A stretch of 64,000 nt of DNA from Thermohalobaculum xanthum. Its GTDB lineage: Bacteria; Pseudomonadota; Alphaproteobacteria; Rhodobacterales; Rhodobacteraceae. The stretch spans positions 124,001 to 188,000 of the forward strand of contig NZ_JAEHHL010000006.1 of the NCBI RefSeq assembly GCF_016623495.1. Reading direction: 5' to 3'. Positions 2,980 through 22,040 of the stretch are shown piece after piece (the stretch's first letter is position 1; each line of letters begins with the position of its first letter). The notes beneath the pieces were generated by a model. The model was not told where the DNA came from, searched no databases, and worked only from the letters and a program-made list of their open reading frames with translations. A program made the position numbers and the translations under genes.

Positions 2980-3606
2980 TCAGAGCGCGAAGGAAGGCAC
3001 GACCCGCACGCCGCTCTCGGCCATCTCGGCATGCGCCTCGGCGAGAGAGCCCCCGAGATCGATCGCGCGGCAGGCATCCTCGGCGACCGTGACCTGGAAC
3101 CCAAGCCGCGCGGCGTCGACGGCCGAGTGGCGCACGCAGTAGTCGGTGGCGAGACCGACAAGGACCAGGCTGCGCACGCCGCGCTCGCTGAGGTATCCGC
3201 GCAGCCCCGTGACCGTGCGTCGGTCGTTCTCGAAGAAGGCCGAGTAGCTGTCGATCCTGTGCCGGAAACCCTTGCGGATCACCAGCTGCGCGGGGTCGGT
3301 GCGCAGATCGGGGTGAAACGCGGCGCCGGGCGTTCCCTGCACGCAGTGCTCGGGCCACAGAACCTGCGGGCCATAGGGCATCTCGACCATCTCGAACGGC
3401 GCCTTGGCCGGATGCGCCGCGGCGAAGGAGTGATGTCCCGCCGGGTGCCAGTCCTGCGTGAGCACGACGGTCGAGAAGCGGTCCATGAGCGGGTTGATCA
3501 GGGGCACCACCGCGCTCCCGTCCTCGACCGCCAAGGCGCCTCCGGGGCAGAAATCGACCTGGACGTCGATGACGATCAGGGCGGTATCGGCGGGAAACTG
3601 GTCCAT
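2980..3606 (-). CDS. pncA: Nicotinamidase (isochorismatase fold)
   Basis: 208 residues, the usual size for PncA. It should hydrolyse nicotinamide to nicotinate and ammonia in the cytoplasm. The catalytic triad is visible: Asp14 in IDVQVDF, Lys112 in RKGF and the nucleophile Cys157 in GLATDYCV. The metal site is suggested by Asp52-x-His54 in QDWHPAGH and His87 in WPEHC. It lies 21 bases downstream of the MarR gene on the same strand, so the pair is probably one transcript. Its product nicotinate would fit as a substrate for the divergent hydroxylase/6-hydroxynicotinate-reductase-like operon. Confidence 0.92.
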   Translation of the reverse strand: MDQFPADTALIVIDVQVDFCPGGALAVEDGSAVVPLINPLMDRFSTVVLTQDWHPAGHHSFAAAHPAKAPFEMVEMPYGPQVLWPEHCVQGTPGAAFHPDLRTDPAQLVIRKGFRHRIDSYSAFFENDRRTVTGLRGYLSERGVRSLVLVGLATDYCVRHSAVDAARLGFQVTVAEDACRAIDLGGSLAEAHAEMAESGVRVVPSFAL

Positions 3607-3627
3607 GAGGCGCTCCGTCGTGGGATC

Positions 3628-4074
3628 TCAGCCCAGCCGCTCGAGCAGGGCGATGAACTCGGCGCGCTCGGGCGGCGTCAAGGGGGCGAGCGTCGCCTCG
3701 GTGATCGCCTGCGCCGAAGGGATCAGGCGCGCCAGCGCGGCCCTCCCCTCGGATGTCAGGCGGACCATCACGCGGCGGCGGTCGGTCGGGCTCTCACCGG
3801 TCTCGATCAGGCCGCGCGCGGCCAGCCGATCGATGACACCCTTGATCGTGGCGGCATCCATTGCGGTGGCACGGCCCAGCTCGTTCTGGCTCACCGGCCC
3901 GATCTCGGCGGTCTTCGCCAGCGCGGCGAACTGCGTTGGCGTCAGTTCTGGGATGCCGGCGTTGAAGATCGCGATGTGGCGCTGCGACGCGCGGCGCAGG
4001 AGGAAGCCGACCTGTTCGTCGAGCTGGTAGGCCTCGGTCCCGCTCGCGGCCCGCCGGCTGGGCGCATCGCTCAT
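3628..4074 (-). CDS. MarR-family transcriptional regulator, candidate repressor of the N-heterocycle regulon
   Basis: 148 residues. A winged helix-turn-helix spans about residues 45-107, with the recognition part at NELGRATAMDAATIKGVIDR and the wing at DRRRVMVRL. Flanking helices form the usual MarR dimerisation region. MarR proteins usually bind short palindromes as dimers and release DNA on binding an aromatic ligand. It is transcribed divergently from the hydroxylase operon across a 228-base gap that holds a strong promoter and an 18-bp palindrome, and is followed by pncA. The same palindrome occurs twice more in the window, so I infer this protein is the regulator of all three units. That link is inference. 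Confidence 0.85.
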   Translation of the reverse strand: MSDAPSRRAASGTEAYQLDEQVGFLLRRASQRHIAIFNAGIPELTPTQFAALAKTAEIGPVSQNELGRATAMDAATIKGVIDRLAARGLIETGESPTDRRRVMVRLTSEGRAALARLIPSAQAITEATLAPLTPPERAEFIALLERLG

Positions 4075-4228
4075 GACGCCTCCGCGCGACGGATCGCGGG
4101 ACGTTTCGCTGCCACCATCGATTCATCGACCTGCCGCTGCATGGGCACATAGTGCATGCGTTGAACCGCCGTGGGAAGCCGCATCCCCGTTTACCGGCAT
4201 GCACGGCCCCGGGCGCCCCAGATCGCGT

Positions 4229-4256
4229 TTGACAGCGGCCCGGCGCGTCATATGAT
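4229..4256 (+). promoter_or_regulatory. Sigma-70-type promoter of the hydroxylase operon
   Basis: TTGACA at 4229-4234, a 16-base spacer, and TATGAT at 4251-4256. The -35 matches consensus at all six positions and the -10 at five of six, which is unusually good for this GC-rich sequence. The start point would fall around 4263, inside the palindrome that begins at 4257, so a protein bound there should block initiation. Confidence 0.75.
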
Positions 4257-4274
4257 TTGTTTGTGTGCAAACGA
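4257..4274. promoter_or_regulatory. Palindromic operator, copy 1 (TTGTTTG-N4-CAAACGA)
   Basis: Arms of seven bases around a four-base centre (TGTG), with one mismatch to the perfect form found at 15530. It abuts the -10 box and ends 28 bases before the ATG of the FAD subunit. The position is that of a repressor site for the rightward operon; the leftward MarR gene lies 183 bases away. Confidence 0.7.
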
Positions 4275-4302
4275 ACCGGGCGGTGCCCCGGGGGATGCGG
4301 CG

Positions 4303-5139
4303 ATGCTTTACGAGAGGCCCGGAACGCTCGACGAGGCGCTCGCTCTCATGGCCGGCGGCCCGGCCTGGCGCGTGCTGGCAGGGGGCACGGATCTCTATCC
4401 CGCGACCACGCATCAGAGCCTGCACGGACCGGTCCTTGACATAGCCGGCCTGGCCGAGCTTCGCGGCATCGCGCGCGAGCCCTCAGGCTGGCGGATCGGC
4501 GCCGCGGCGACCTGGACCGAGGTCCTTGGAGCAGGTTTGCCGTCCGCCTTCAGCGCGCTGGTCGAGGCGGGCCGCGAGTTGGGCTCGATCCAGATCCAGA
4601 ACGTCGCGACCGTGATGGGCAACCTGTGCAACGCCTCGCCCGCCGCCGACGGCGTGCCCGCGCTGATGGTTCTCGACGCCGAGCTCGAGCTCGTCTCGGC
4701 CACCGGCCGAAGGCGGCTTGGGCTTTCCGAGTTCATCCTGGGCAACCGTCGCACCGCGCGGACCCCGGACGAGATCGCGGTGGCGATCCACGTGCCCGAG
4801 GCGGCCGTGCGCGGTGTCTCGGCATTCGAGAAGCTTGGTACGCGGCGCTACCTGGTGATCTCGATCGCTATGGCCGCGGCCCGGGTCGAGGTCGAGAACG
4901 GCCGCATCGCGGCAGCCTCGCTCGCGGTGGGCGCCTGTTCCGAGGTTGCGCGACGGCTCCCGATGGTCGAGCGCGCGCTGGTCGGCCAGCCGGCCGACGC
5001 CCCAGTAATCGATGCGGCGGCGGTTGCGGAGGCGCTGGACCCCATCGACGACGTGCGCGCGACGGCCGCCTACCGGCGCGAGGCGGCGGCCGAGATCCTT
5101 CGGCGCGCGGTCTTGCGCGCGGCGTGGGGCGCGTCATGA
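4303..5139 (+). CDS. Molybdenum hydroxylase (xanthine dehydrogenase family), FAD-binding subunit
   Basis: 278 residues, the size of CoxM/XdhB-type medium subunits. Two FAD-binding motifs are clear: LAGGTDLYP at residues 25-33 and the TVMGNLCNASPAAD region near 105-118. The C-terminal CO-dehydrogenase-flavoprotein domain follows. It should pass electrons from the 2Fe-2S/Mo subunit encoded next to an acceptor. The open frame continues upstream to 4171, but that part overlaps the promoter and operator, and the ATG at 4303 starts the conserved MLYERPGTLDEAL. Its stop overlaps the next gene's start (ATGA). The substrate is not readable here; the neighbours suggest an N-heterocycle such as nicotinate. 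Confidence 0.88.
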   Translation: MLYERPGTLDEALALMAGGPAWRVLAGGTDLYPATTHQSLHGPVLDIAGLAELRGIAREPSGWRIGAAATWTEVLGAGLPSAFSALVEAGRELGSIQIQNVATVMGNLCNASPAADGVPALMVLDAELELVSATGRRRLGLSEFILGNRRTARTPDEIAVAIHVPEAAVRGVSAFEKLGTRRYLVISIAMAAARVEVENGRIAAASLAVGACSEVARRLPMVERALVGQPADAPVIDAAAVAEALDPIDDVRATAAYRREAAAEILRRAVLRAAWGAS

Positions 5140-7865
5140 GCTTCGACACAAGGCCTGCCGCCTTCACGGTCAACGGCCGCCAGGTCGAGATCGAGGCGGC
5201 GCCCACCGAACGCCTGAGCCACCTGCTGCGCGAGCGCCTGGGCCTGACCGGTACCAAGGTCGGCTGCGATGCCGGTGACTGCGGCGCCTGCACGGTTCTG
5301 GTCGATGGCATGCCGCAATGCGCGTGCCTCATGCCCGCCGCGCGCGTTGCGGGACGGCAGGTGACCACGGTCGAGGGGCTGGCCTCGGACGGGCGGCTCT
5401 CCGCGCTGCAGGCGGCCTTCCTTCGCCACGGTGCCGCGCAGTGCGGCATCTGCACGCCGGGTATGCTGATGGCGGCAGCGGCGCTTCTGTCGGTAAACCC
5501 GCGTCCCGCACCGGCCGAGGCCGAGGCGGCGCTGGGCGGAGTGCTGTGCCGCTGCACCGGCTACCGCAAGATCGTGGCGGCGGTGTGCGATGCATGGGCC
5601 GACGCGCCGCGACCCGCGCCCGTTCCGGCTGGCCGCGCGGTGGGGGCCCCCGTCGCGCGCCTCGACGGCCCGCCCAAGGTTACCGGAGCTGATGTCTTCG
5701 GCGCGGACCGCTGGCCCGCCGGCGCGCTCTGGGTGCACGTGATCCGATCGCCGCATCATCACGCGGACTTCAGCTTTGGCGATCTGGCTGCATGGCAGGC
5801 GGCGACGCCAGGTGTCGCCGCGGTCTTCACTGCAGCCGACATCCCGGGTCGCAATGCCTTCGGCGTGATCCCGCCTTTCGCCGATCAGCCCGCGCTGGCG
5901 GTCGATGCCGCACGGTTTCGCGGCGAGGCGGTGGCGCTGGTCGCGCTGGAGCCCGGTGCGGCCGAGGACTTCGACGCGACCGCCTTCCCGGTGACATGGG
6001 AGGAGCTTCCGGCCGCCCTCGATCCCGAGGCCGCGAAGTCTGCCCCCGCCATCCACCCGGCACGCCCTGGCAACCTGCTGATCCGCGGGCTCGTGCGGCG
6101 CGGCGACCCCGACGCCGCTCTCGCGGCCGCCGCGCATGTCGCCGAGGGCGCGATCGAGACCGCCTATGTCGAGCACGCCTATATCGAGCCCGAGGCGGGC
6201 TGCGCCTATATGGATGGCGAGACCCTGGTCATCCATACCTGCACGCAGGCGCCGCACATGGATCGCGACGACACCGCGGTGATGCTGGGCCTGCCGCCCG
6301 AGCGGGTGCGGATCGTGGCGACCTCGACCGGCGGGGGCTTCGGCTCGAAGCTCGACATCTCGATCCAACCCCTGGTCGGGCTCGTGACGCTCAAGACCGG
6401 AAGGCCGGCGCGGATCGTCTACACGCGGGGCGACTCGATGCGGTCGACGACCAAGCGCCACCCGGCTCGGATGCGCGCACGCATCGGCACCGACGCCGCC
6501 GGGCGCGTCACGGGTCAGGTGTTCGACGGCGACTTCAATACCGGCGCCTATGCAAGCTGGGGGCCGACGGTCGCAAACCGCGTGCCGGTGCATGCCTCGG
6601 GCCCCTACAGCGTGCCGAACTACCGCGCCGAGGCCCGGGCGATCCACACCAACGGCCCGATCGCCGGTGCGTTCCGCGGCTTCGGCGTTCCGCAAGCGAC
6701 GATCATGCAGGAGGTGCTCTACGACCAGCTCGCCGCCGACGCAGGGATCGACCGCCTTGCCTTTCGACAGCTCAATGCACTGACGGACGGAGAGTCCACG
6801 GTCTGTGGCCAGCGCCTCTCGGCGGTCGGGATCGGCGCCTGTCTCGCAGCGCTCGAGGGGCCGTGGTCGGAGGCGCTCGCCTGGGCGGCGGATGCGCCTG
6901 CCGGTCCCGTGACGCGGGGCGTCGGGATCGCCTCGTGCTGGTATGGCTGCGGCAACACGGCGCTGCCCAACCCGTCGACCATCCGCATCGGCGTGACCGC
7001 GGCGGGCGAGGTCGTGCTGCACCAGGGTGCTGCCGACATCGGCCAGGGCGCGAACACCGTCATCGCGCAGATCGCCGCCGATGCGCTGGGCGTTGCGCTC
7101 GGCGCGATCCGGCTGGTCGGGCCCGATACGGCGTTCACCCCGGATGCCGGCAAGACCTCGGCCTCGCGCCAGACCTATGTGAGCGGACGAGCGGCCGAGG
7201 CCGCGGGCCGTGCGCTGAGATCCGCGATCCTGCGTCATGCGAACGTGGCCGAGGGTGCGTCGCTCGGGTTCGGGCAGGGCACGATCGTGATCGATGACGG
7301 CGCCGCGCGGCATGTGATCGACCTCGCCGCCCTGGCCGAGGGGCGGGACGGCTACGTCTTCGCCGCCGAGGAGACCTACGACCCCCCGACCACCGCGCTC
7401 GACGCGGACGGGCAGGGGACGCCCTATGCCGTCTACGGCTATGGCGCGCAGATCGTCGAGCTGTCGGTCGACACCCGGCTCGGTACGGTCAAGCTGCACC
7501 GCATCACCGCCGCGCACGACCTGGGCCGCGTGATCAACCCCGTGCTGGCGGAAGGGCAGATCGAGGGCGGCATCGCGCAGGGTATCGGGCTTGCGCTGAT
7601 GGAGGATTACGTGCCCGGCCGCACCGAGAACCTGCATGATTACCTGATCCCGACCTTCGGCGATGTCCCCGAGATCCACCATATCCTGATCGAGAAACCT
7701 GACCCCGAGGGCCCGTTCGGCGCCAAGGGATTGGGCGAGCATGTCCTGATCCCCACCGCGCCCGCCATTCTCAACGCCATCCGCCACGCCACCGGGGCGC
7801 TGGTGACGCGGCTGCCGGCAACCCCGGACCGGGTGCTGGCCGCGATCCGGTCCAAGGGAGCCTGA
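5136..7865 (+). CDS. Molybdenum hydroxylase, fused 2Fe-2S and molybdopterin subunit
   Basis: 909 residues. Residues 8-150 form a complete small subunit: plant-type 2Fe-2S cysteines 44, 49, 52 and 62, and the second cluster at 103, 106, 138 and 140 (CGIC and CRC). From about 165 onward it is the large Mo-cofactor subunit, with GGGFGSK, AFRGFGVPQ, ADIGQGANT and the C-terminal GAKGLGEH, whose Glu868 matches the catalytic glutamate of the family. It hydroxylates an aromatic N-heterocycle or aldehyde using water. Bacterial relatives more often have these two parts as separate genes, so the fusion is notable. The start is the ATG at 5136 overlapping the preceding stop. A maturation chaperone (XdhC) is not present in the window. 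Confidence 0.9.
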   Translation: MSFDTRPAAFTVNGRQVEIEAAPTERLSHLLRERLGLTGTKVGCDAGDCGACTVLVDGMPQCACLMPAARVAGRQVTTVEGLASDGRLSALQAAFLRHGAAQCGICTPGMLMAAAALLSVNPRPAPAEAEAALGGVLCRCTGYRKIVAAVCDAWADAPRPAPVPAGRAVGAPVARLDGPPKVTGADVFGADRWPAGALWVHVIRSPHHHADFSFGDLAAWQAATPGVAAVFTAADIPGRNAFGVIPPFADQPALAVDAARFRGEAVALVALEPGAAEDFDATAFPVTWEELPAALDPEAAKSAPAIHPARPGNLLIRGLVRRGDPDAALAAAAHVAEGAIETAYVEHAYIEPEAGCAYMDGETLVIHTCTQAPHMDRDDTAVMLGLPPERVRIVATSTGGGFGSKLDISIQPLVGLVTLKTGRPARIVYTRGDSMRSTTKRHPARMRARIGTDAAGRVTGQVFDGDFNTGAYASWGPTVANRVPVHASGPYSVPNYRAEARAIHTNGPIAGAFRGFGVPQATIMQEVLYDQLAADAGIDRLAFRQLNALTDGESTVCGQRLSAVGIGACLAALEGPWSEALAWAADAPAGPVTRGVGIASCWYGCGNTALPNPSTIRIGVTAAGEVVLHQGAADIGQGANTVIAQIAADALGVALGAIRLVGPDTAFTPDAGKTSASRQTYVSGRAAEAAGRALRSAILRHANVAEGASLGFGQGTIVIDDGAARHVIDLAALAEGRDGYVFAAEETYDPPTTALDADGQGTPYAVYGYGAQIVELSVDTRLGTVKLHRITAAHDLGRVINPVLAEGQIEGGIAQGIGLALMEDYVPGRTENLHDYLIPTFGDVPEIHHILIEKPDPEGPFGAKGLGEHVLIPTAPAILNAIRHATGALVTRLPATPDRVLAAIRSKGA

Positions 7866-7868
7866 GCC

Positions 7869-9419
7869 ATGGACGAAGGCCCACCGCGCACCGATCCGAA
7901 GACCGATACCCCGAACCCCGAGGCGCCCGTCGAGGCCCATGCTCCGCGCGACCGCGACGGCAAGATCCGCTGCGACGCCTGCCCGGTCATGTGCTACATC
8001 GCCGAGGGGCGCACGGGGGCCTGTGACCGCTATGCCAATCATGGCGGGCGCATCCTGCGCTGCGATCCCGTGACCATCCTCGACCGCACGATGGAGGCGG
8101 GAGGCAAGGTCGTGCCCTTCATGGCGGGCGAGTGGGACGGCGAGATGATGGCGCGGCCGGGCCTCTTCGTCACCGGCGTCGGCGCGGGCACCACCTATCC
8201 CGACTACAAGCCCGCGCCCTTCATCGTCGCGTCGCGGCCCGAGGGCGCCGACCTCGTCACCGTCGTGACCGAGGCGATCTTCAGCTACTGCGGCGTCAAG
8301 GTGAAGATCGACACCGACCGCCATCTCGGCGAGGAGGGCGACTTCGTGCGCGCGGCGGGCGAGCCGGTGGGCCTGGTGATGACCGCCGAATATGGCAGCC
8401 AGATGCTCTCGCTCGGCGGCGTTCGGCATCTCACGGGGGGCTCGAAACCCGAGGGCCGCGTGACTTGCGAGACGCTGCTGGCACTGTGCAACCGCGAGGC
8501 CGTCGAGCTCGAGATCGAGAACGGCTCGCGCGTGGTCGTGCAGGCGGGGCATGCGCCCATCGTCGATGGCACGCCCGAGACGCGCATGCGCGTGGGCTGC
8601 GGCTCGGCCACGATCGGCATGTTCGCGACCCAATGGCAGGGGCTCGTGGACGAGGTGGTGGTGGTCGACGACCACATCACCGGTGTCGTCTCCGAGCACC
8701 AGGCGGGCAAGGTGATTGGCTGGGAGGACACCGGCATCCGCATCAAGGGCCGGCGCTCGACCCCGGGGCGGTATTTCAAGGTCGCGGAGCCGGGGCAGGG
8801 CTGGGGCGGCACCAATATCGATGACCCGCTGTCGATCCTGGGGCCCTGGAACCCCAAGAAGGGCGCGCGGCCCGGCCTGCGGCTGCTCATGGTCTCGACC
8901 ACGGGTGAGCAAGCCGCCTATTACGAGCTGGACGAGGACCTCACGCCGGTCCGGCGCGACCTGCCCTCGCGGCTCGTGCCTTCGGTGCACCTGATCGACG
9001 AGAACTGCGAGCCGGCGCTCTGCACGGTCCTTTTCATGGGCGGCGCGGGCGGCTCGCTCAGGTCGGGCGTGACCAGGAACCCGGTGCGCCTCACGCGCTC
9101 GGTCCAGGCGGGGCGAACCCGCGTGACCTGCGGCGGCGCCCCGGTCTATGTCTGGCCGGGCGGCGGCATCACCCTGATGACCGATGTCACGCGTCTTCCC
9201 GACGGCGCCTTTGGCTATGTCCCCACCCCGGCGCTGGTCGCGCCGCTCGAATTCACGCTGCCGCGGGCCGAGTATCTCGCGCTGGGCGGCCATGGCGCGC
9301 ATATCCGCACGCTCGGCGACATCCTCGCCTCGGGCGGCGAGTATGGCGAGGCGCTGGCCCGTGCCGCCCCAGACCCGGCCAACCCCTGGCCGCTGGATGA
9401 CGAGATCGTGCCGGGATGA
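7869..9419 (+). CDS. 6-hydroxynicotinate reductase-like iron-sulphur protein
   Basis: 516 residues. I recognise it as the family annotated 6-hydroxynicotinate reductase, known from Eubacterium barkeri, where it reduces 6-hydroxynicotinate to 1,4,5,6-tetrahydro-6-oxonicotinate with ferredoxin. Visible features are an N-terminal cluster motif of Cys35, Cys38, Cys42 and Cys52, a further Cys65, a glycine-rich stretch GVGAGTTYPD near 103, and GCGSATIG at 243-250, which loosely resembles a flavin-attachment motif (Thr248). No signal peptide or membrane segment is seen. It starts three bases after the hydroxylase stop and overlaps the UPF0280 gene by four bases. The actual substrate is unproven; the preceding hydroxylase and nearby pncA favour a pyridine carboxylate. 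Confidence 0.72.
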   Translation: MDEGPPRTDPKTDTPNPEAPVEAHAPRDRDGKIRCDACPVMCYIAEGRTGACDRYANHGGRILRCDPVTILDRTMEAGGKVVPFMAGEWDGEMMARPGLFVTGVGAGTTYPDYKPAPFIVASRPEGADLVTVVTEAIFSYCGVKVKIDTDRHLGEEGDFVRAAGEPVGLVMTAEYGSQMLSLGGVRHLTGGSKPEGRVTCETLLALCNREAVELEIENGSRVVVQAGHAPIVDGTPETRMRVGCGSATIGMFATQWQGLVDEVVVVDDHITGVVSEHQAGKVIGWEDTGIRIKGRRSTPGRYFKVAEPGQGWGGTNIDDPLSILGPWNPKKGARPGLRLLMVSTTGEQAAYYELDEDLTPVRRDLPSRLVPSVHLIDENCEPALCTVLFMGGAGGSLRSGVTRNPVRLTRSVQAGRTRVTCGGAPVYVWPGGGITLMTDVTRLPDGAFGYVPTPALVAPLEFTLPRAEYLALGGHGAHIRTLGDILASGGEYGEALARAAPDPANPWPLDDEIVPG

Positions 9420-10285
9420 GCGCGACCGCACGCATGTTGCCGGACGGGCGGCGGCTCCACCTCCACCACGGGCCAATCGACGTGATCTTCGAGGCCTGGG
9501 GCTCTCGCGCGGAGGTCGAGGCCGCGCGCGCTCAGGCAGCCGCGCGGTTCCGCTCGATCCTGCAAGAACTGGTCGACGAGCTCCCGACCCTCCGCCGCCC
9601 GGTCGGCGACGGGCCCTCCAACCTGTCCGGCACGGTCGCGCGCGCGATGGAGCAGGCGGCCCGCGCCCATCATCCAACATTCGCGACGCCGATGATCGCC
9701 GTCGCGGGCGCGGTGGCCGACGAGATCCTACGCGCCGCCCTGTCCGGGCGGCGCCTTGCGCGCGCCTATGCCAACAATGGCGGCGATGTCGCGCTGCACC
9801 TGGGGCCGGGCGAAGCGATGGCGGCGGCGATAGCCACCCGTCCCGAACTACCGGACCGCGTCCGTATCGACGCCGCAAGCCCGGTGCGCGGCATCGCCAC
9901 CTCGGGCTGGCGCGGGCGGTCGCGCTCGCTCGGCATCGCGGACGCCGTCACCGTGCTCGCGCGCAGCGCTGCCCTCGCCGACGCGGCGGCAACGCTCGTC
10001 GCCAACGCGGTTGACCTGCCGGGTCATCGGGCGGTCGAACGGGCCCGCGCCTGCGATCTCGACGATGACTCGGACCTCGGCGCGCGGCTGGTCACGGTCG
10101 CGGTCGGGCACCTCGACCCGCCGGAGGCGGCGCGGGCGCTGGAGGTCGGGGCCGCGGTCGCGCGGACGATGAAGAGACGCGGCCTGATCGAGGCCGCGGC
10201 GCTTTTTCTCGCGGGCGAGGCGCGCGTCGTGGGCGAGTTGGGAACCGGGGCGCTGATCCCCGCGCTGGAGAGGACAGATGGCTGA
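9416..10285 (+). CDS. UPF0280 family protein (ApbE-like)
   Basis: 289 residues, start codon overlapping the upstream stop (ATGA). The sequence fits the UPF0280 family, which is distantly related to the flavin transferase ApbE: MIAVAGAVADEIL near residue 92, the YANNGGDVALHL core at about 119-130, and SGWRGRSRSLGIADAVTVLA further on. The general ApbE fold binds FAD and transfers FMN to a Thr/Ser, but no activity is established for UPF0280. Its tight coupling to the iron-sulphur reductase makes a role in loading that enzyme with flavin a reasonable hypothesis. It overlaps the DUF1185 gene by eight bases. Confidence 0.75.
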   Translation: MSATARMLPDGRRLHLHHGPIDVIFEAWGSRAEVEAARAQAAARFRSILQELVDELPTLRRPVGDGPSNLSGTVARAMEQAARAHHPTFATPMIAVAGAVADEILRAALSGRRLARAYANNGGDVALHLGPGEAMAAAIATRPELPDRVRIDAASPVRGIATSGWRGRSRSLGIADAVTVLARSAALADAAATLVANAVDLPGHRAVERARACDLDDDSDLGARLVTVAVGHLDPPEAARALEVGAAVARTMKRRGLIEAAALFLAGEARVVGELGTGALIPALERTDG

Positions 10286-10856
10286 TTTCGCGATCCGCAA
10301 GACCGTTCTGGTCACCGAGCAGATCCTGCACGACGGCGGCCCTGTCGCGCCCCGCCCCCGTCGCCGCGCGCTGGCAGCGGCGGTCGTGGCGAACCCCTTC
10401 GCCGGACGCCACGTCGCCGAGCTCCAGCCGGCGATGGAGGACCTCAAGCCGCTGGGCGAGCAGCTCACCACCATGCTGATCGGCGCGCTGGGCGAAGGCG
10501 CGATCGATGCTTATGGAAAGGGTGCCATCGTCGGCGCGGCGGGCGAGATCGAGCACGGTGCGCTGTGGCACGTGCCGGGTGGCTACGCGATGCGCGGCCG
10601 GCTCGAGCCGTCGAAGGCGATCGTCCCCTCGGCGATGAAGCTGGGCCCGATGGGGGCGAGCCTCGATGTGCCGCTCGGGCATGTGAATGCCGCCTATGTC
10701 CGGAGCCATTTCGACGCGATGACCCTGGTCGTTCCCGATGCGCCACGGACCGATGAGATCGTCTTCGCGCTGGCGATGTCCTGCGGGCCGCGCATCCACT
10801 CGCGCATGGGCGGGCTCGAGGCATGGGACGTGAAGGGCGAGGACGGGCTGCGCTGA
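10278..10856 (+). CDS. DUF1185 (amino acid synthesis family) protein
   Basis: 192 residues. It resembles the small DUF1185 family, labelled amino acid synthesis in databases without a known reaction. Conserved-looking blocks include VVANPFAGRHVAEL, YGKGAIVGAAGEIEHGALWH and VPLGHVNAAYVRSHFDAM. It is soluble, with no signal peptide. It is the last gene of the five-gene rightward operon, overlaps the UPF0280 stop, and faces the convergent cupin gene 20 bases away. The order reductase-UPF0280-DUF1185 suggests a fixed functional unit; I cannot name its reaction. Confidence 0.72.
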   Translation: MADFAIRKTVLVTEQILHDGGPVAPRPRRRALAAAVVANPFAGRHVAELQPAMEDLKPLGEQLTTMLIGALGEGAIDAYGKGAIVGAAGEIEHGALWHVPGGYAMRGRLEPSKAIVPSAMKLGPMGASLDVPLGHVNAAYVRSHFDAMTLVVPDAPRTDEIVFALAMSCGPRIHSRMGGLEAWDVKGEDGLR

Positions 10857-10875
10857 CGCCCGGGCGCCCGGCGCC

Positions 10876-11283
10876 TCAATCCAGCTGGACGACCGCGAGG
10901 CGGCATTCGCCCGGGCTGGTGACGCGCGTGCTGTGGCCGGTCCCCGCGACGTCCTCCATCAGCCAGATCCCGCCGGGGCCGATCTCGCGCCGCTCGCCGT
11001 CGCCGGCCTCGACACTGATGCTGCCTGACAGGCAGAACGCGACCTGGCGCTTCGGCGAGGGGTGCCGCTTGCCGACCCAGCCGGCCGGCAGGGTCAGGAA
11101 CAGCAGGCGCTTCGCCGTCCACGGCGCCGAGAGGAACAGCGCCTGCGCAGGCGGCGCGAAGTCCTGGAGTTCGAGCTCCACGCTGTGGTCCTCGAAATGC
11201 GAGACGCCATTCTTGTCCGCGGCAAGATGAAGATAGTCCGTCCGTGGAGCTCCCCGCTGGTCGTCACCCGAAGGCGCCATCAT
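10876..11283 (-). CDS. Cupin-domain protein
   Basis: 135 residues, single cupin barrel. The two cupin motifs are weak: GKRHPSPKRQVAFCLSGS in the first half and GGIWLMEDVAGTGHSTRV in the second, so metal ligands are partly retained (His74, His115 approximately). It is the last gene of the leftward hyuA-hyuB-small-ORF-cupin series. A role as a small isomerase, hydrolase or sensor in the same catabolic route is possible but not shown. Confidence 0.7.
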   Translation of the reverse strand: MMAPSGDDQRGAPRTDYLHLAADKNGVSHFEDHSVELELQDFAPPAQALFLSAPWTAKRLLFLTLPAGWVGKRHPSPKRQVAFCLSGSISVEAGDGERREIGPGGIWLMEDVAGTGHSTRVTSPGECRLAVVQLD

Positions 11284-11346
11284 GCCATGGAACGCATCGC
11301 CGCGGGGACAGCGGTGTCTCGATCCTTCGCCATCGTGGTGCCGGTG

Positions 11347-11586
11347 TCAGCCGCCTTCGAGCGCGTCTGCCAGCTCGCGCAGCTTGGCCGCGGCATCGCG
11401 GGTGGTCACGCCGTCCGTCAGCGTGTGATCGAAGGCGACGATCGTGATCACCGACAGCCTCTGCATCGGCGTCAGGTTGCTCCCGTTGTCCGAGTCGGAG
11501 AAATCGCGCACCAGGTCCGCTGCCGTCAGGACGGCGCGGTCGATCCTGTAGAGCGTGGGGCAGCAGCCATGCATATGTTTCGCCAC
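11347..11586 (-). CDS. Small conserved-looking protein of unknown function (79 aa)
   Basis: Not recognised. The reading frame has the G/C-rich third positions of its neighbours, supporting a real gene. The N-terminus MAKHMHGCCPTLYRIDRA contains a His-x-His and a Cys-Cys pair that could bind a metal; the rest is predicted helical and acidic (DSDNGSNLTPMQRL, AAAKLRELADALEGG). It sits between hyuB (95 bases upstream) and the cupin (63 bases downstream) on the same strand. An imperfectly explained inverted repeat ACGAA-TCG-TTCGT (11603-11615) lies just before its start. Confidence 0.5.
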   Translation of the reverse strand: MAKHMHGCCPTLYRIDRAVLTAADLVRDFSDSDNGSNLTPMQRLSVITIVAFDHTLTDGVTTRDAAAKLRELADALEGG

Positions 11587-11681
11587 GTCTTTGCACCCAG
11601 GGACGAATCGTTCGTTAACGCATCTTGCCGCGCGGGCAGTTCACTGTCTTTGACACGCGTCAGAGTCGTGCCGATCTGTTG

Positions 11682-13430
11682 CTACTCTGCCGCTTTGCGC
11701 AGGCTTTCGCGCAGCGCCGTGGTGGCATCGGCATCGATGGCAGCTCCGTCGATGACCACGCCGAAGCGCGCCCGCGCGTCGTCCGGCGTGTAGTAGCCCA
11801 GCCGCACGTCCTCGGCGACCGCAGCGGGATCGCGCGCCAGCGGGTCGCCGTAGCCACCGCCGCCGGGCGTGCCCACCCGGACCCGGTCCCCCGGCTCCAT
11901 CGGGATGTCCTGCTCCTTCGACAGGTGCGGCGGCACGTGGATCTCGCCCTTGCGGACCACCTGCACGCTGTTGGTCGCGCCATCCTCGCCGCCCAGCGCG
12001 CCCTGCGGACCGAACCGCCCGTGATCCATCACGAAGGAGGCCCGCGCCTCGCCGCGCCTCAGCTCGATCTCGTAGTCGAGGCCGAAGCCGCCGCGCCATT
12101 TGCCTGCGCCACCCGATCCCTCGCGCAGCGCGTAGCGGTGATAGAGCACCGGGAACTGCTGCTCCATGATCTCGACCGGAGGCGCCTTCGAGATGCCGAT
12201 GGTCGAGCAGCCGTTCGTCAGCCCGTCGATCCCCCGGGCGCCGCCATAGCCGCCGCCCGACAACTGGTACATCACGAAGCCGCGTCCGCGTGCGGGGTCG
12301 AATCCGCCAAGCGCGAAATTGCCCGAGGTTCCGGCGGGTGCCGCCGTCACCCGCTCGGGGATGGCCTGCACCAGGGCGGCGAACACCGCCTCGGCGATGC
12401 GCTGGCTGACCTCCGCCGCGCAGCCCGAGACCGGGCGCGGATACTGCGCATCGAGGAATGTGCCGGTGGGGACGACCACCTCCAGCGGCTCGAAGGCGCC
12501 CGCGCTGATCGGCACGTCCGGGAAGATGTGGCGCATCGCCAGGTAGACCGACGACAATGTCGTCGCCAGCACCGAGTTCATCGGCCCCTGGCAGGGCGGC
12601 GAGGAACCTGCGAAATCGAAGACCAGACGCTCCCCCGTCCGGCTCACCGCCAGCCGGATCTCGAGCGGCGCGTCCACCACGCCGTCGGAATCGACATGGG
12701 CCGTCGCATGGTAGGTGCCCTCGGGGATGGTCGCGATCTGCGCCCGCATCCGCGCGGCCGCGCGGCCGCGCAACTCGCCGATCGCCTCGCCTACGGTCGC
12801 GTCGCCATAGCGGTCGAGCAGCCGCGTGAGCCCGTCGGCGCCGATCTCCAGGGCCGCGGCCTGCGCCTTGACGTCGCCGATGCGCTGCTCGGCCACCCGG
12901 ATGTTCGAGCAGATGATCTGGTAGATCTCGGGGTCGAGCACGCCGCGCTTGAACAGCTTGACCGGCGGCAGCCGCAGCCCCTCCTGCTCGACCGCGGTGG
13001 CCGAGGCCGAGAAGCCACCCGGCACCGCGCCGCCGATGTCCGGCCAGTGGCCGGTGTTCGACAGCCAGCAGAAGATCTTGCCGTCACGCCAGTATGGCAT
13101 GGCGAAGCGCACATCCATCAGGTGCGTGCCGCCCAGGTAGGGGTCGTTGACGATGTAGATGTCGCCGGGCTCGGGCGCGGCGGTCAGGCCGTCGCGGATG
13201 CGCTCGATCAGGCATCGGGTCGAGAACTGCATGGTGCCGACGAAGACCGGCAGCCCGCCCGCGCCTTGCGCGATCAGCGCGCCGTCAACCGGCGAATAGA
13301 TCCCGTCGGAACGGTCGTTTGCCTCGGCGATGATCGGCGAGAAGGCGGCGCGCGAGAAGGCCAGGTCCATCTCGTCGCAGATCTGCTGCAGCGCGGCCTC
13401 GATGACCGTGAGCGTCACGGGGTCGATCAT
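11682..13430 (-). CDS. hyuB: Hydantoinase B/oxoprolinase-family subunit
   Basis: 582 residues, full length for HyuB. Family blocks include IDPVTLTVIEAALQQICDEM at the start, YIVNDPYLGGTHLMDVRFA near residue 100, and the C-terminal GDRVRVGTPGGGGYGDPLAR. Together with HyuA it forms an ATP-dependent cyclic amide (hydantoin, oxoproline or related lactam) hydrolase. The frame is open upstream to 13592, but the ATG at 13430 overlaps the hyuA stop (ATGA) and gives the conserved N-terminus. In this cluster a plausible substrate is the lactam made by the reductase, but N-methylhydantoin- or oxoproline-type substrates are equally compatible. Confidence 0.9.
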   Translation of the reverse strand: MIDPVTLTVIEAALQQICDEMDLAFSRAAFSPIIAEANDRSDGIYSPVDGALIAQGAGGLPVFVGTMQFSTRCLIERIRDGLTAAPEPGDIYIVNDPYLGGTHLMDVRFAMPYWRDGKIFCWLSNTGHWPDIGGAVPGGFSASATAVEQEGLRLPPVKLFKRGVLDPEIYQIICSNIRVAEQRIGDVKAQAAALEIGADGLTRLLDRYGDATVGEAIGELRGRAAARMRAQIATIPEGTYHATAHVDSDGVVDAPLEIRLAVSRTGERLVFDFAGSSPPCQGPMNSVLATTLSSVYLAMRHIFPDVPISAGAFEPLEVVVPTGTFLDAQYPRPVSGCAAEVSQRIAEAVFAALVQAIPERVTAAPAGTSGNFALGGFDPARGRGFVMYQLSGGGYGGARGIDGLTNGCSTIGISKAPPVEIMEQQFPVLYHRYALREGSGGAGKWRGGFGLDYEIELRRGEARASFVMDHGRFGPQGALGGEDGATNSVQVVRKGEIHVPPHLSKEQDIPMEPGDRVRVGTPGGGGYGDPLARDPAAVAEDVRLGYYTPDDARARFGVVIDGAAIDADATTALRESLRKAAE

Positions 13431-15490
13431 GCCGCCCCCACATGGATGAAGAGGTTGCCGTCGGCGCCCGTCTCGGCCCGGTCGCCAGGCGGGATCACCA
13501 CGGTGGTGTCCATCTGCTCGACGATGGCGGGGCCGGCAAAGCGGGCATCGCGTGGCAGCCGGGACCGGGCATAGACCGGGGTGTCGTGCCATTCGGCCCC
13601 GAAGCGGACGGGACGGCGGTGCGTGATCGCGTCATCGAGGCTTTTGCCGTCGCCGCCATCCGCAAGTGCCCCGAGGTCGATCGCGGCGCGCTCGCCGATC
13701 ACCGAGGTGTTGAGGTTCACGAGGTTCGCGCGGATCGTCGGAAGCTCGACCTTGAAGCGGGCGTAGTAGGCCGCCTCGAAAAGCTGTTGCAGCGTCTCGC
13801 GCGCGGGTGCGGCGTCGGGCAGCGCGACGCGGATCAGGTGCGTCTGGCCGACGAACTGCATGTCGGCGGTGTAGACCGCGCGCACCCGCCCGACCGATGC
13901 GCCGTTTCGCGCGACCGTCTCGCGCCCCGTCGCGGTCTGCTCGGCCAGGATCGCGTGGACATGCGCGATGTCGATGCTGTCGAGCGGGCGGTTCACCGTG
14001 CGCACGAAGTCGTGCCGCAGGTCCGCGACCGCGCAGCCCAGCGCGTTGGTGATGCCCGGCCGGGCCGGCACCAGCACGCGCGGGATCGCGAGCTCGCGGG
14101 CGAGTGCTGCGGCGTGCAGCGGACCGGCTCCGCCGAAGGCGAACAGCGCGAAGTCGCGCGGGTCGTGCCCCATCGAGATCGAGACCATGCGGATCGCGCC
14201 CGCCATGTTGGCGTTGGCGACCCGGATCGCTGCCTCCGCCGCGCCCTCGGCGTCGAGCCCCAGCGCCGCGCCGATCCCGGCAAAGGCCGCGCGCACCGAC
14301 TCGACCGGCGGCATCCCGTCGACCGAAAGCAGTTTGGCCGGGTTGAGCCGGCCCAGCAGCAGGTTCGCGTCAGAGATCGTGGGCTCGGTCCCGCCGCGCC
14401 CGAAGCAGATCGGCCCCGGCATCGCCCCCGCGCTCTCGGGGCCGACACGCAGCAAGCCCCCCTCGTCGACCGAGACGATCGAGCCACCGCCCGCGCCGAT
14501 GGTGCGCACGTCGACCATCGGCACATGGATCGGCATGGCGTACTCGATCTCGATCTCGTGGCTGACGGCCGGCTCGGCGCCGCGGATCAGCGACACATCG
14601 GACGAGGTGCCGCCCATGTCATAGGTGATCAGGTTGGTGCAGCCCGCGCGGCGCCCGGTATAGGCCGCCGCCATCACGCCCGATGCCGGGCCCGACATCA
14701 CTGTCTTGGCCGCCTCGCGCCCCGCGAGACGGGCCGAGACCATGCCGCCATTGCCGTTCATCACCAGGATCTCGCGCCCGTATCCCTGCGCGGCCAGCTC
14801 GGCCTGCAATCGTGCCAGGTAACGCTCGAGGATGGGCTGCACGCTGGCATTCACCGCCGCCGTGGCGCCCCGCTCGAACTCGCGGCTCTCGGACAGCAGG
14901 GCATGGCCCATGGTCACATGCCCGTTGGGCCAGAGCTCGGCCGCGACCTCGGCCGCGCGCAGCTCGTGCGCGGGGTTGGCATAGGCATGCAGGAAGTGGA
15001 TCACCAGCGACTCGCAGCCGCGATCGAGCAGCGCGCGCACCGCGTCGCGCACCGCGCCCTCGTCGAGCGGGACCAGGATCTCGCCGGTGGCGTCCATGCG
15101 CTCGGGCACCTCGAGGCGCAGGTCGCGCGGAATCACGGGCCGGAAGCGCCCCGTCATGCCATAGGGCTGCGGCCGCGTCCGCCGGCCCAGCTCAAGTACG
15201 TCGCGAAACCCCGCCGTGGTGATCAGCCCCGTGCGCGCAAGGCGGCGTTCGAGCACCGCGTTGGTCGTGGTCGTGGTGCCATGCACGATCAGGTCCAGCG
15301 CCGCAGGGGCGACGCCCGCCGCCTCGAGCGCTGCCAGCACGCCATCCGCCTGATTCTGCGGCGTTGTCGGCGTCTTGGCGATCCGCACGCCGCCATCCGC
15401 GCCGCCGATCAGGATCAGGTCGGTGAAGGTGCCGCCGACATCGATCCCCGCAATGGTCTCGACAGACGGGCTTGCATCGGCGGCGGACAT
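13427..15490 (-). CDS. hyuA: Hydantoinase A/oxoprolinase-family subunit
   Basis: 687 residues, normal HyuA length. The N-terminal actin-like ATPase motif IAGIDVGGTFTDLILIGG is at about 13-30, GTTTTTNAVLERR at about 94-106, and the second phosphate loop TYDMGGTSSDVSL in the middle; the C-terminus is the HyuA domain. It works with HyuB, using ATP to open a cyclic amide. The frame is open upstream to 15658, but the ATG at 15490 begins the family's N-terminus and the upstream part contains the palindromic operator. It is divergent from the ferredoxin-NADP reductase gene, 167 bases away, with the perfect operator copy between them. Confidence 0.9.
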   Translation of the reverse strand: MSAADASPSVETIAGIDVGGTFTDLILIGGADGGVRIAKTPTTPQNQADGVLAALEAAGVAPAALDLIVHGTTTTTNAVLERRLARTGLITTAGFRDVLELGRRTRPQPYGMTGRFRPVIPRDLRLEVPERMDATGEILVPLDEGAVRDAVRALLDRGCESLVIHFLHAYANPAHELRAAEVAAELWPNGHVTMGHALLSESREFERGATAAVNASVQPILERYLARLQAELAAQGYGREILVMNGNGGMVSARLAGREAAKTVMSGPASGVMAAAYTGRRAGCTNLITYDMGGTSSDVSLIRGAEPAVSHEIEIEYAMPIHVPMVDVRTIGAGGGSIVSVDEGGLLRVGPESAGAMPGPICFGRGGTEPTISDANLLLGRLNPAKLLSVDGMPPVESVRAAFAGIGAALGLDAEGAAEAAIRVANANMAGAIRMVSISMGHDPRDFALFAFGGAGPLHAAALARELAIPRVLVPARPGITNALGCAVADLRHDFVRTVNRPLDSIDIAHVHAILAEQTATGRETVARNGASVGRVRAVYTADMQFVGQTHLIRVALPDAAPARETLQQLFEAAYYARFKVELPTIRANLVNLNTSVIGERAAIDLGALADGGDGKSLDDAITHRRPVRFGAEWHDTPVYARSRLPRDARFAGPAIVEQMDTTVVIPPGDRAETGADGNLFIHVGAA

Positions 15491-15529
15491 GCGGCAGACC
15501 CCCTTGCGACGATATTGGCCATTGCCTAT

Positions 15530-15547
15530 TTGTTTGTACGCAAACAA
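15530..15547. promoter_or_regulatory. Palindromic operator, copy 2, perfect (TTGTTTG-TACG-CAAACAA)
   Basis: Perfect seven-base arms around TACG; the symmetry extends one base on each side (15529 T, 15548 A). It lies 40 bases before hyuA on the minus strand and 110 bases before the ferredoxin-NADP reductase ATG on the plus strand, so it could control both. Neither direction shows a promoter as clear as that at 4229. Confidence 0.72.
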
Positions 15548-15657
15548 AACAGGCGCGAAAAGTGGAATTCGCGGCGCCCCTGCAGGGATCGACGCCGAGG
15601 ACGGAAACCCGAATGCCCGGCCGCGCGCCGGGACGGCCTCTGAGGAGCCCACCGACA

Positions 15658-16473
15658 ATGACCGCGACCAATGCCGCTGTCGCCCAGACCGCCTATCCGA
15701 TCCCGGAGAACGTCTTCGCCGAGACCGTGACCGAGGTGCAGCACTACACCGACCGGCTGTTCAAGTTCCGCATCACCCGCCCCGCGAGCTTCCGCTTCCG
15801 CTCGGGCGAGTTCGTGATGATCGGCCTGCCGAATGCCGAGCGCCCGGTCTACCGTGCCTACTCGATTGCCTCGCCGTCCTGGGACGAGGAGCTCGAGTTC
15901 TTCTCGATCAAGGTGCCCGGCGGCCCGCTGACCGAGCATCTGCAGAAGATCGTCGTCGGCGACACGATCCTGATGAAGAAAAAGCCCACGGGGACGCTGG
16001 TCAACGACGCGCTGATCGCCGGCAAGCGGCTCTATCTGTTCTCGACCGGCACGGGGATCGCGCCCTTCGCCTCGATCGTGCGCGACCCCGAGACCTACCA
16101 GAAGTTCGAGAAGGTCTACCTGCTCCACACCTGCCGCCTCGACGCCGAGCTCGAGTACGGCCGCGAGCTCGTGGCGATCACCAAGGACGACCCGCTGGTT
16201 GGCGAGGAAGCGAGCGCGCAGCTGGTGCACTACGCCACCACCACCCGCGACCAGACAGACCGCATGGGCCGGCTGACCGATCTGATGGACTCGGGCAAGC
16301 TGTGGGAGGATCTGGGCGTGCCCCCGATCGATCCGGCCGAGGACCGCGGCATGATCTGCGGCTCGATGGCGATGCTCAAGGACGTGAAGGCCCGGCTCGA
16401 AGCCGCGGGGTTGACCGAAGGGGCGAACAATCGCCCCGCCGAATTCGTGGTCGAGCGCGCCTTCGTCGACTGA
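15658..16473 (+). CDS. fpr: Ferredoxin/flavodoxin-NADP reductase
   Basis: 271 residues, the length of Rhodobacter-type Fpr. The FAD site is RAYS at 66-69, the NADP site is GTGIAPF at 131-137 and the C-terminus ends in VVERAFVD, typical of subclass I bacterial reductases. It moves electrons between NADPH and ferredoxin or flavodoxin. The frame is open upstream to 15472, but the ATG at 15658 starts the conserved protein. A strong terminator follows at 16501, so it is probably transcribed alone. Its position next to the shared operator suggests it is recruited to supply reduced ferredoxin to the cluster's reductase, although Fpr usually serves general redox balance. Confidence 0.9.
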   Translation: MTATNAAVAQTAYPIPENVFAETVTEVQHYTDRLFKFRITRPASFRFRSGEFVMIGLPNAERPVYRAYSIASPSWDEELEFFSIKVPGGPLTEHLQKIVVGDTILMKKKPTGTLVNDALIAGKRLYLFSTGTGIAPFASIVRDPETYQKFEKVYLLHTCRLDAELEYGRELVAITKDDPLVGEEASAQLVHYATTTRDQTDRMGRLTDLMDSGKLWEDLGVPPIDPAEDRGMICGSMAMLKDVKARLEAAGLTEGANNRPAEFVVERAFVD

Positions 16474-18057: not shown

Positions 18058-18075
18058 TTGTTTGCCTACAAAGTA
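18058..18075. promoter_or_regulatory. Palindromic operator, copy 3 (TTGTTTG-N4-CAAAGTA)
   Basis: The left arm is identical to the other two copies; the right arm has two mismatches to CAAACAA. The spacing (four bases, CCTA) is the same. It lies 65 bases before the substrate-binding protein of the ABC importer and 30 bases after the membrane protein stop. Confidence 0.6.
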
Positions 18076-19451: not shown

Positions 19452-19458
19452 CCCGGAC

Positions 19459-19477
19459 GGGCGGGCAGGTCCCGCCC
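19459..19477 (+). promoter_or_regulatory. Hairpin between the binding-protein and permease genes
   Basis: GGGCGGG pairs with CCCGCCC across a five-base loop, eight bases after the stop; only a weak pyrimidine tract follows. Such hairpins often stabilise the 3' end of the binding-protein message and lower permease expression. Confidence 0.5.
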
Positions 19478-19503
19478 CCTTTCCTGCCGGAGGCGAGGCC
19501 CGC

Positions 19504-22039: not shown

Positions 22040-22040
22040 G

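Follow-up and report, generated by a model that had tools for sequence, protein, structure and literature searches.

Nicotinate is degraded by Eubacterium barkeri and, physiologically, by Azorhizobium through 6-hydroxynicotinate and its tetrahydro-oxo form. A gene cluster of Bradyrhizobiaceae has been assigned to nicotinate, and the 6-hydroxynicotinate reductase (Hnr) of SG-6C was found to be 42% identical to that of E. barkeri (PMC3511419). Loci whose gene content fits the cluster presented in that paper are called Bradyrhizobium-type here. In the present work, a stretch of 64,000 nucleotides from Thermohalobaculum xanthum (contig NZ_JAEHHL010000006.1, positions 124,001 to 188,000, hereafter the window) was analysed. 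Between positions 2980 and 22763 it carries a block of genes coding for a nicotinamidase (PncA), a MarR-type regulator, a molybdenum (Mo) hydroxylase, an Hnr-like protein, members of the UPF0280 and DUF1185 families, a small cupin, the two subunits of a predicted lactam hydrolase dependent on adenosine triphosphate (HyuA and HyuB, together HyuAB), a ferredoxin/flavodoxin-NADP+ reductase-like protein (FNR), a membrane protein and a Liv-type ATP-binding cassette importer. In contrast to the pathway of E. barkeri and of Azorhizobium and the Bradyrhizobiaceae (PMC3511419), no enamidase was detected in the window's genome at E ≤ 1e-60, and the window contains HyuAB instead, an ATP-dependent enzyme of another family. 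It is probable that the block represents a regulon for the reductive catabolism of nicotinate (pyridine-3-carboxylate) with HyuAB as ring opener. The reductive pathway as such is already known; what appears to be new is a variant in which the ring-opening enzyme has been replaced.

The catalytic steps, all of them inferred like the substrate itself, would be as follows. The importer would take up the substrate, and PncA would turn nicotinamide into nicotinate, which the Mo-hydroxylase would convert to 6-hydroxynicotinate. Hnr would reduce the latter to 1,4,5,6-tetrahydro-6-oxonicotinate (THON), the electrons probably coming from the FNR-like protein via ferredoxin. HyuAB would then open the six-membered lactam of THON at the expense of ATP, with HyuA activating the lactim and the metal site of HyuB hydrolysing it, and would thereby take the role that belongs to the enamidase in Bradyrhizobium-type clusters and in E. 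barkeri. Ring opening would lead first to the enamine 2-(aminomethylene)glutarate, from which 2-formylglutarate and ammonium would form. UPF0280 would serve Hnr by attaching or delivering flavin, and DUF1185 would act on the ring-opened product.

Gene content, operators, the one-or-other pattern of ring openers and the ApbE-like predicted fold of UPF0280 were all computed in this work. The ring openers were searched in a sample of 398 genomes drawn across the phylum (G000, the window's genome, and following numbers), using cut-offs of E ≤ 0.001 for Hnr, E ≤ 1e-60 for the enamidase and E ≤ 1e-120 for HyuB, which represented the Hyu pair in the scan. Hnr matches were obtained in 39 genomes. They were of full length in 32, and the other seven were short and located near residues 27-63, where the N-terminal cysteine motif lies. 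HyuB at 67-100% identity was present in 17 genomes (21 at the E-value cut-off) and enamidase at 63-100% identity also in 17 (19 at the cut-off), all of them with Hnr. The two additional enamidase matches (42-44% identity) belong to genomes devoid of Hnr. Weaker HyuB matches of 43-47% came from two genomes lacking Hnr (G280, G297) and from two that have Hnr together with the enamidase (G339, G379); in G167, G333 and G367 such matches were second copies. Taken together, the HyuB and enamidase sets cover exactly the 32 Hnr genomes, and only two of these, G123 and G194, belong to both sets. At those identities, neither ring opener was found in the 366 genomes that lack full-length Hnr. An overlap of two is the smallest possible for 17 and 17 in 32 (P 2.4e-7 if genomes were independent; as they are related, the value is a guide only). 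The central guess of the sequence-only reading, a reductive nicotinate-type route with HyuAB in place of the enamidase, is thus supported, every one of the 32 Hnr genomes having a close HyuB or an enamidase like that of structure 2VUN, as opposed to none of the 366 others. The replacement of the enamidase by HyuAB as ring opener is supported by strong comparative evidence from sequence. 

In G123 and G194 the enamidase gene lies apart from Hnr and UPF0280, in a locus that contains neither. These loci (L190, G194:C11:23000-39000; L191, G123:C11:49000-65000) are a second kind of enamidase locus, with an enamidase 64% identical to the reference. Each holds a pair of DUF1185 genes and, at some distance, MarR, and they are perhaps involved in the breakdown of another lactam or enamide ring.

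Hnr neighbourhoods were inspected in two sets, namely 20 fetched loci (L034-L053) and the best 80 of more than 591 Hnr relatives, which mostly resemble the window. At least two genomes are present twice among these 100 loci (L035 with L077, L037 with L111). The two ring openers were never found in one locus (0/100). An amidohydrolase gene occurs in seven of the 20 neighbourhoods; one member was tested and matched PDB entry 2VUN with an E-value of 7.3e-109, so that by its sequence this amidohydrolase corresponds to the enamidase known from E. barkeri. On the tree of Hnr, which has several long end branches, the HyuB rows fall in two separate groups, and at least two changes are forced by the starred branches. 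A single origin of HyuB was recovered in 0% of 200 bootstrap trees, as read from the complementary enamidase-only label. The presence of two HyuB groups points to at least two swaps of the ring opener. In-frame stops were flagged in some matches; in the loci that could be read, five with HyuB and one with the enamidase, they stood at the end of the gene.

The genes of the block also appear to be linked by their regulation. The palindrome TTTGTNNRCAAAC, with at most one mismatch, gave five matches at three places in the window against a mean of 0.15 in shuffled sequences. A longer form allowing up to three mismatches retrieved from the 4.05 Mb genome operators 1 and 2 and a single weak site with three mismatches elsewhere; the control, with the pattern read backwards, gave one match over the whole genome. 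MarR, whose gene was present in 59/80 and 16/20 Hnr loci, would control the operons via this one palindromic operator. Across loci, a site was scored when at least 10 of the 12 specified positions matched within 250 bases upstream of a gene, and the expectation was taken from single-base shuffles. Operators were obtained upstream of HyuA in 22 of 35 cases (expected 1.0), FNR in 23/27 (1.4), PncA in 29/38 (1.6), the FAD (flavin adenine dinucleotide) subunit of the hydroxylase in 42/76 (3.0), NicS in 5/9 (0.0), the enamidase in 4/7 (0.8), the importer binding protein in 8/31 (0.4) and the membrane protein in 1/5 (0.0). The counts were 0/7 for a second type of binding protein (expected 0.0), 2/51 for Hnr (1.0) and 4/84 for LivF (2.2). 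Where HyuA lies behind importer genes, no operator of its own was seen. In the window and in Mesorhizobium loci, the operator occupies the gap between the divergent genes of HyuA and FNR. Enamidase and FNR are likewise divergent in L043, L052, L192, L193 and L194, and except in L192 a similar operator separates them. In L042 an operator precedes the enamidase, and a ferredoxin-like open reading frame (ORF), recognised by eye, separates it from FNR. No FNR was seen in the enamidase neighbourhoods of L041 and L048.

The Hnr-like protein itself had no match in Pfam or NCBIfam, and a profile search of PDB gave nothing; its AlphaFold2 model was too poor for use, with a mean predicted local distance difference test score (pLDDT) of 52.1. 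Its kinship to 6-hydroxynicotinate reductase is suggested by its place in a cluster of the kind described in PMC3511419. Among the matches listed, the closest is that of Limibaculum sediminis FT325 (87%). In G016 (L050) the Hnr gene is in two pieces, 2969796-2970518 and 2970518-2971258, through a frameshift or an assembly error.

UPF0280 was detected in 32 of the 398 genomes, exactly those with Hnr. In each of the 20 fetched neighbourhoods its gene comes after Hnr and has the same orientation, with a gap of more than 400 bases only in L045, where MarR is inserted. It is present in 78 of the 80 further loci; L104 ends soon after Hnr, and in L062, a 5.7 kb contig of a metagenome-assembled genome, importer-like ATPase genes are downstream of Hnr, which UPF0280 truly does not adjoin. 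The AlphaFold2 model of UPF0280 had a mean pLDDT of 91.3. Alignment with VIA-align gave a Z-score of 20.6 with 2o34 and of 13.7-15.6 over 205-218 residues with chains of ApbE, Ftp and FmnB, against 7.8 for the next fold. Foldseek also returned 2o34 first and then ApbE chains, at E-values of 2.4e-4 and weaker and template modelling (TM) scores of about 0.3-0.5. By sequence, the only convincing PDB match was 2o34 (DVU1097, DUF375; profile E 1.4e-12). The window's protein did not match the Pfam ApbE family even at E ≤ 10, and one distant UPF0280, that of L135, gave a sub-threshold match (E 0.041). The Hnr of E. barkeri reportedly carries a covalent flavin. Because of this, of the strict co-occurrence and of the ApbE-like predicted fold, UPF0280 may flavinylate Hnr, by attaching or delivering the flavin. 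It is not classed as an ApbE but may work like one.

The likeness to ApbE flavin transferases (PMC12052999) comprises the predicted fold and invariant residues in the GGD, TSG and ADA-x-x-T motifs: Asn120, GGD124, Ser163, Asp189 and Thr193 are invariant in 97 homologues and the window. The catalytic residues of ApbE are given as Ser, His and Asp (PMC12052999). Two differences weigh against a flavin transferase of this kind. UPF0280 has no conserved histidine in the expected stretch after ATSG (position 170 is His in 29 of 98 rows; the equivalence was drawn by motif, with no superposition), and the flavin target motif D-x-x-[ST]-G-A-[ST] occurs in none of the 32 Hnr sequences. Given these absences alongside the invariance of Ser163, Asp189 and Thr193, UPF0280 could instead be a flavin carrier, an FAD pyrophosphatase or an assembly chaperone of Hnr, with Hnr taking up its flavin alone. 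This alternative has a substantial chance of being correct, though one somewhat short of even. It has to be set against the fold scores, the co-occurrence and the covalent flavin that E. barkeri Hnr is said to carry, and against His15 and His18 of UPF0280, near-invariant (19/20), which could serve as base. The SGVT loop of Hnr was considered as flavin site because it is similar to the last residues of the motif targeted by ApbE. As candidate it was weakened, since its Thr402 is present in 91 of 100 sequences and replaced by V or A in nine, and since the canonical motif is absent; this variability in the loop nearest to the motif also speaks for the alternative. In the open-access literature searched, UPF0280 was mentioned in no paper.

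In Pfam, the DUF1185 protein of the window matched only PF06684 at E ≤ 0.001, outside the Rid sequence family, and it is nearest to BB2672 (3byq, E 7e-50), followed by SPO0826 (2qtp, E 6.8e-38). DUF1185 genes were found in 70/80 and 19/20 Hnr loci, some of the absences being due to contig ends. Two copies are present in L038, L041, L042, L044, L047, L048 and L049, one of each type in those that were aligned (L041, L042 and L047). Among 200 genomes searched, 27 have DUF1185, 14 with and 13 without Hnr. The latter, together with five extra copies, gave 18 loci without nearby Hnr; a luciferase-like monooxygenase was identified by clustering in nine of these and an aldehyde dehydrogenase in 12. 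In the usual gene order these are joined by a flavin reductase, an alpha/beta hydrolase and a regulator of the GntR type, with domains read from the representative L201. In L198-L202, L206, L208 and L214, DUF1185 is near a flavin reductase/alpha-beta hydrolase and a luciferase-like monooxygenase and/or an aldehyde dehydrogenase, in most cases with GntR, an arrangement that resembles the trigonelline operon. As DUF1185 also accompanies enamidase or luciferase-like monooxygenase genes with no Hnr nearby, it appears tied to ring opening and not to Hnr, and this suggests a function at the step after ring opening.

When a lactamase hydrolyses THON, an enamine must be the initial product. RutC removes an enamine of this sort during the breakdown of uracil, a step once presumed to be spontaneous (PMC8113886). 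The fold of DUF1185 is chorismate mutase-like (PMC2954203), and the Rid family is placed in one superfamily with AroH (PMC8805217). From fold and context, DUF1185 might be an enamine deaminase, hydrolysing after ring opening the same chemical kind of enamine as the 3-aminoacrylate deaminase RutC (PMC8113886), from which it differs by having no sequence link and by forming a hexamer that has additional elements. The trigonelline protein TgnF, a DUF1185 homologue, and HcdD are members of this family; both are encoded in operons for ring-containing compounds, whose pathways are distinct from the THON route, and for HcdD no effect could be observed by its authors (PMC7913881). Searches of the open-access literature on homarine, on covalent flavin together with 6-hydroxynicotinate, and on TgnF gave nothing on the roles sought beyond one passage on TgnF. 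In eight loci without DUF1185, the ORFs directly downstream of UPF0280 looked unrelated by eye and included no Rid-like gene. This lack of a Rid-type replacement gives the enamine idea no support and shows that a cluster can do without DUF1185.

For the hydroxylase of the window, no substrate-specific NCBIfam model passes its cut-off. The enzyme is of the type with an FAD subunit and a fused 2Fe-2S/Mo subunit, whereas Bradyrhizobium-type loci have a hydroxylase that carries cytochrome c (domains read from one member). The first type was found in 17 and the second in 16 of the 32 Hnr genomes, each genome having at least one and G274 both. The window-type hydroxylase goes with HyuB in 15 genomes, two of which also have the enamidase, and with the enamidase only in two; the cytochrome c-carrying type goes with the enamidase in 13 and with HyuB in three, including G274. 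These four combinations argue for one pathway with two exchangeable steps and not for two pathways, although two favoured pairs are clearly commoner. PncA is encoded in 33/80 and 4/20 Hnr loci, and PncB, the nicotinate phosphoribosyltransferase, adjoins the cluster in three of the 20 (L039, L040 and L051, all Bradyrhizobium-type; Pfam was run on L039 only). Together with the published Bradyrhizobiaceae assignment (PMC3511419), the two genes suggest nicotinate rather than another pyridine.

The favoured pairs (15 of 17 and 13 of 16) could also mark two substrates, and HyuAB passes no substrate-specific model, so that HyuAB-type clusters might degrade another pyridine carboxylate or a pyridone (picolinate, isonicotinate, or a metabolite of nicotine or a neonicotinoid) by the same chemistry. 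Such a division is improbable in view of the mixed pairs, with window-type hydroxylase and enamidase in G008 and G339 and the other hydroxylase and HyuB in G386 and G167. The Hnr of both types, moreover, is 57-76% identical to that of the window, relatives at 57-70% being those next to the enamidase in Bradyrhizobium-type loci, and PncA is embedded in the 33 loci mentioned.

The assignment of HyuAB to the lactam of THON can be compared with characterised relatives. HyuAB resembles CapAB and OplAB (PMC8453981, PMC11033972) in the ATP motifs of HyuA, in the metal motif of HyuB and presumably in the opening of stable lactams; unlike theirs, the substrate expected for it is a vinylogous lactam that bears a carboxylate. 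In caprolactamase the corresponding motifs bind ATP and metal (PMC8453981). The HyuA motifs DxGGTxTD (DVGGTFTD), DxGGT (DMGGT) and GxxPGP were compared between the window and 35 orthologues; their residues agree in 33-35 of the 36 rows, and only gaps account for the remainder. In HyuB, the spacing of the His-x2-Asp-x21-His metal motif is that of H99/D102/H124 in CapB, and an upstream Asp stands 61 or 64 residues before the His, compared with 58 in CapB; Asp, His-x2-Asp and His are invariant across 31 rows, apart from gaps in three to five of them. THON would be a reasonable substrate, given that delta-valerolactam, likewise a six-membered lactam, is hydrolysed by PpOplAB, which is related to HyuAB (PMC11033972). 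No paper in the open-access literature searched brings a hydantoinase together with enamidase, 6-hydroxynicotinate or 2-formylglutarate, and among the papers listed by a wider search none combined it with a nicotinate term.

Several observations weigh against HyuAB as the ring opener of this pathway. With the caprolactamase models NF050156 and NF050157, HyuAB reached 482.5 and 318.2 bits, below the cut-offs of 1000. The best-scoring solved relative of HyuA is the N-methylhydantoinase 7hk5 (E 6.1e-138), ahead of the caprolactamase structure 6yra (E 1.2e-107). HyuAB is thus, by its sequence, not caprolactamase itself, and because of these two results its substrate cannot be read from sequence. 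In 7hk5 the A and B parts form one chain of 1288 residues, as opposed to the two genes found here. The genome scan scored only the best three or four candidates per genome, and the identity thresholds were chosen post hoc at gaps (from 67% to 47% for HyuB, from 63% to 44% for the enamidase). In at least nine of 17 genomes HyuB is unlinked to Hnr, lying on a different contig or at a distance above 70 kb; in G333, G367, G139 and G016 no FNR gene adjoins it. In G139, HyuA is in the Hnr locus L046, and the close HyuB (L189) is about 1.4 Mb away without an adjoining HyuA. In the set of 80 loci, HyuA or HyuB lies within the flank in 29 and the enamidase in none. On the enamidase side, the gene adjoins FNR without being divergent in L047 and L049; its upstream operator is below threshold in three of the seven neighbourhoods in L034-L053 (L041, L047 and L049); the match before it in L048 is not palindromic-looking, and none was seen in L192.

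A role of HyuAB in hydantoin, purine or oxoproline metabolism was considered and set aside as the leading idea, since close HyuB occurs only in Hnr genomes among the 398, despite the N-methylhydantoinase being the top match. It is very improbable that HyuAB, whose family includes hydantoinases, oxoprolinases and caprolactamases and whose HyuB is so often unlinked to Hnr, acts elsewhere (on N-methylhydantoin, hydantoin, 5-oxoproline or a purine or pyrimidine product) and is merely a neighbour, with THON opened by an unrecognised amidase: close HyuB is present in every Hnr genome without enamidase and in none without Hnr, the HyuB loci far from Hnr that were fetched (nine, L181-L189) have the operator upstream of HyuA in eight and the FNR gene in six (8/8 and 6/8 in L181-L188, that is, besides G139), and HyuAB occupies the position next to FNR which in several Bradyrhizobium-type loci belongs to the enamidase.

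The features of the block are collected in Table 1. The genes from the hydroxylase through Hnr and UPF0280 to DUF1185 overlap at their ends or almost touch. The sequence-only reading had further proposed that the named genes share a neighbourhood and an operator, and all of them were indeed found, with three operator sites. The importer it included is present and preceded by an operator, yet it lies beyond the range given for the cluster, 2980-16473. Its expectation of undescribed roles for UPF0280 and DUF1185 could be sharpened, the former going with Hnr and the latter with ring opening. The small cupin gene between DUF1185 and HyuB was seen in one of the 80 loci (Limibaculum sediminis) and in none of the 20. 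The membrane protein adjoins the importer binding protein in 33/80 and 2/20 loci and may be part of uptake.

Table 1. Genes and operator sites of the candidate nicotinate block (window coordinates).
Feature	Position	Strand	Basis or remark
PncA nicotinamidase (nicotinamide to nicotinate)	2980-3606	-	Curated model NF008623, 212.1 bits (cut-off 174)
MarR-type regulator, presumed operator binder	3628-4074	-	PF12802/PF01047; binding presumed
Operator 1, upstream of hydroxylase-Hnr operon	4256-4275		
Mo-hydroxylase, FAD subunit	4303-5139	+	PF00941 + PF03450 (Pfam run from 4285; start by frame reading)
Mo-hydroxylase, fused 2Fe-2S/molybdopterin subunit, presumed nicotinate 6-hydroxylase	5136-7865	+	PF00111, PF01799, PF01315, PF02738, PF20256
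Hnr, 6-hydroxynicotinate reductase-like, N-terminal C-x2-C-x3-C-x9-C	7869-9419	+	Comparison among 398 genomes, alignment
UPF0280, predicted ApbE fold, proposed flavin maturation factor of Hnr	9416-10285	+	NF003322, 353.7 bits (cut-off 290)
DUF1185, BB2672-like type, proposed to act on ring-opened enamine	10278-10856	+	PF06684
Small cupin, probably outside conserved pathway	10876-11283	-	PF07883
HyuB, predicted metal-binding lactam hydrolase subunit	11682-13430	-	PF02538, 536.6 bits
HyuA, predicted ATP-dependent activating subunit	13427-15490	-	PF05378, PF01968, PF19278
Operator 2, between divergent HyuA and FNR	15529-15548		
FNR-like protein, presumed electron feed to Hnr	15658-16473	+	PF00970 + PF00175
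Membrane protein, 492 residues	16549-18027	+	0 Pfam families; kept beside importer
Operator 3, upstream of importer	18060-18072		
Importer periplasmic binding protein	18141-19451	+	PF13458
LivH-type permease	19450-20385	+	PF02653; start approximate
LivM-type permease	20382-21317	+	ORF; similar genes at same place in other loci
LivG-type ATPase	21314-22039	+	PF00005 + PF12399
LivF-type ATPase	22029-22763	+	PF00005

A joint reading of the three proteins can be proposed, although it is rather unlikely to hold in all its parts. HyuAB would be an ATP-driven THON lactamase swapped with the enamidase at least two times. UPF0280 would form a new class of cytoplasmic flavin transferases with an ApbE-like fold but without the ApbE histidine, attaching the covalent flavin of Hnr at a non-canonical site. 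The DUF1185 proteins would be new enamine deaminases (or formyl-acid tautomerases or decarboxylases) for H2N-CH=C(COOH)- products of both reductive and oxidative pathways.

A central step in the catabolism of vitamin B3 is apparently carried out in soil and marine Alphaproteobacteria by two unrelated and nearly mutually exclusive enzymes. This would correct the likely annotation of such HyuAB proteins as belonging to hydantoin or oxoproline metabolism. Two protein families without assigned function, UPF0280 and DUF1185, gain testable roles, and a second class of flavin transferase, if true, would matter well beyond the nicotinate pathway.

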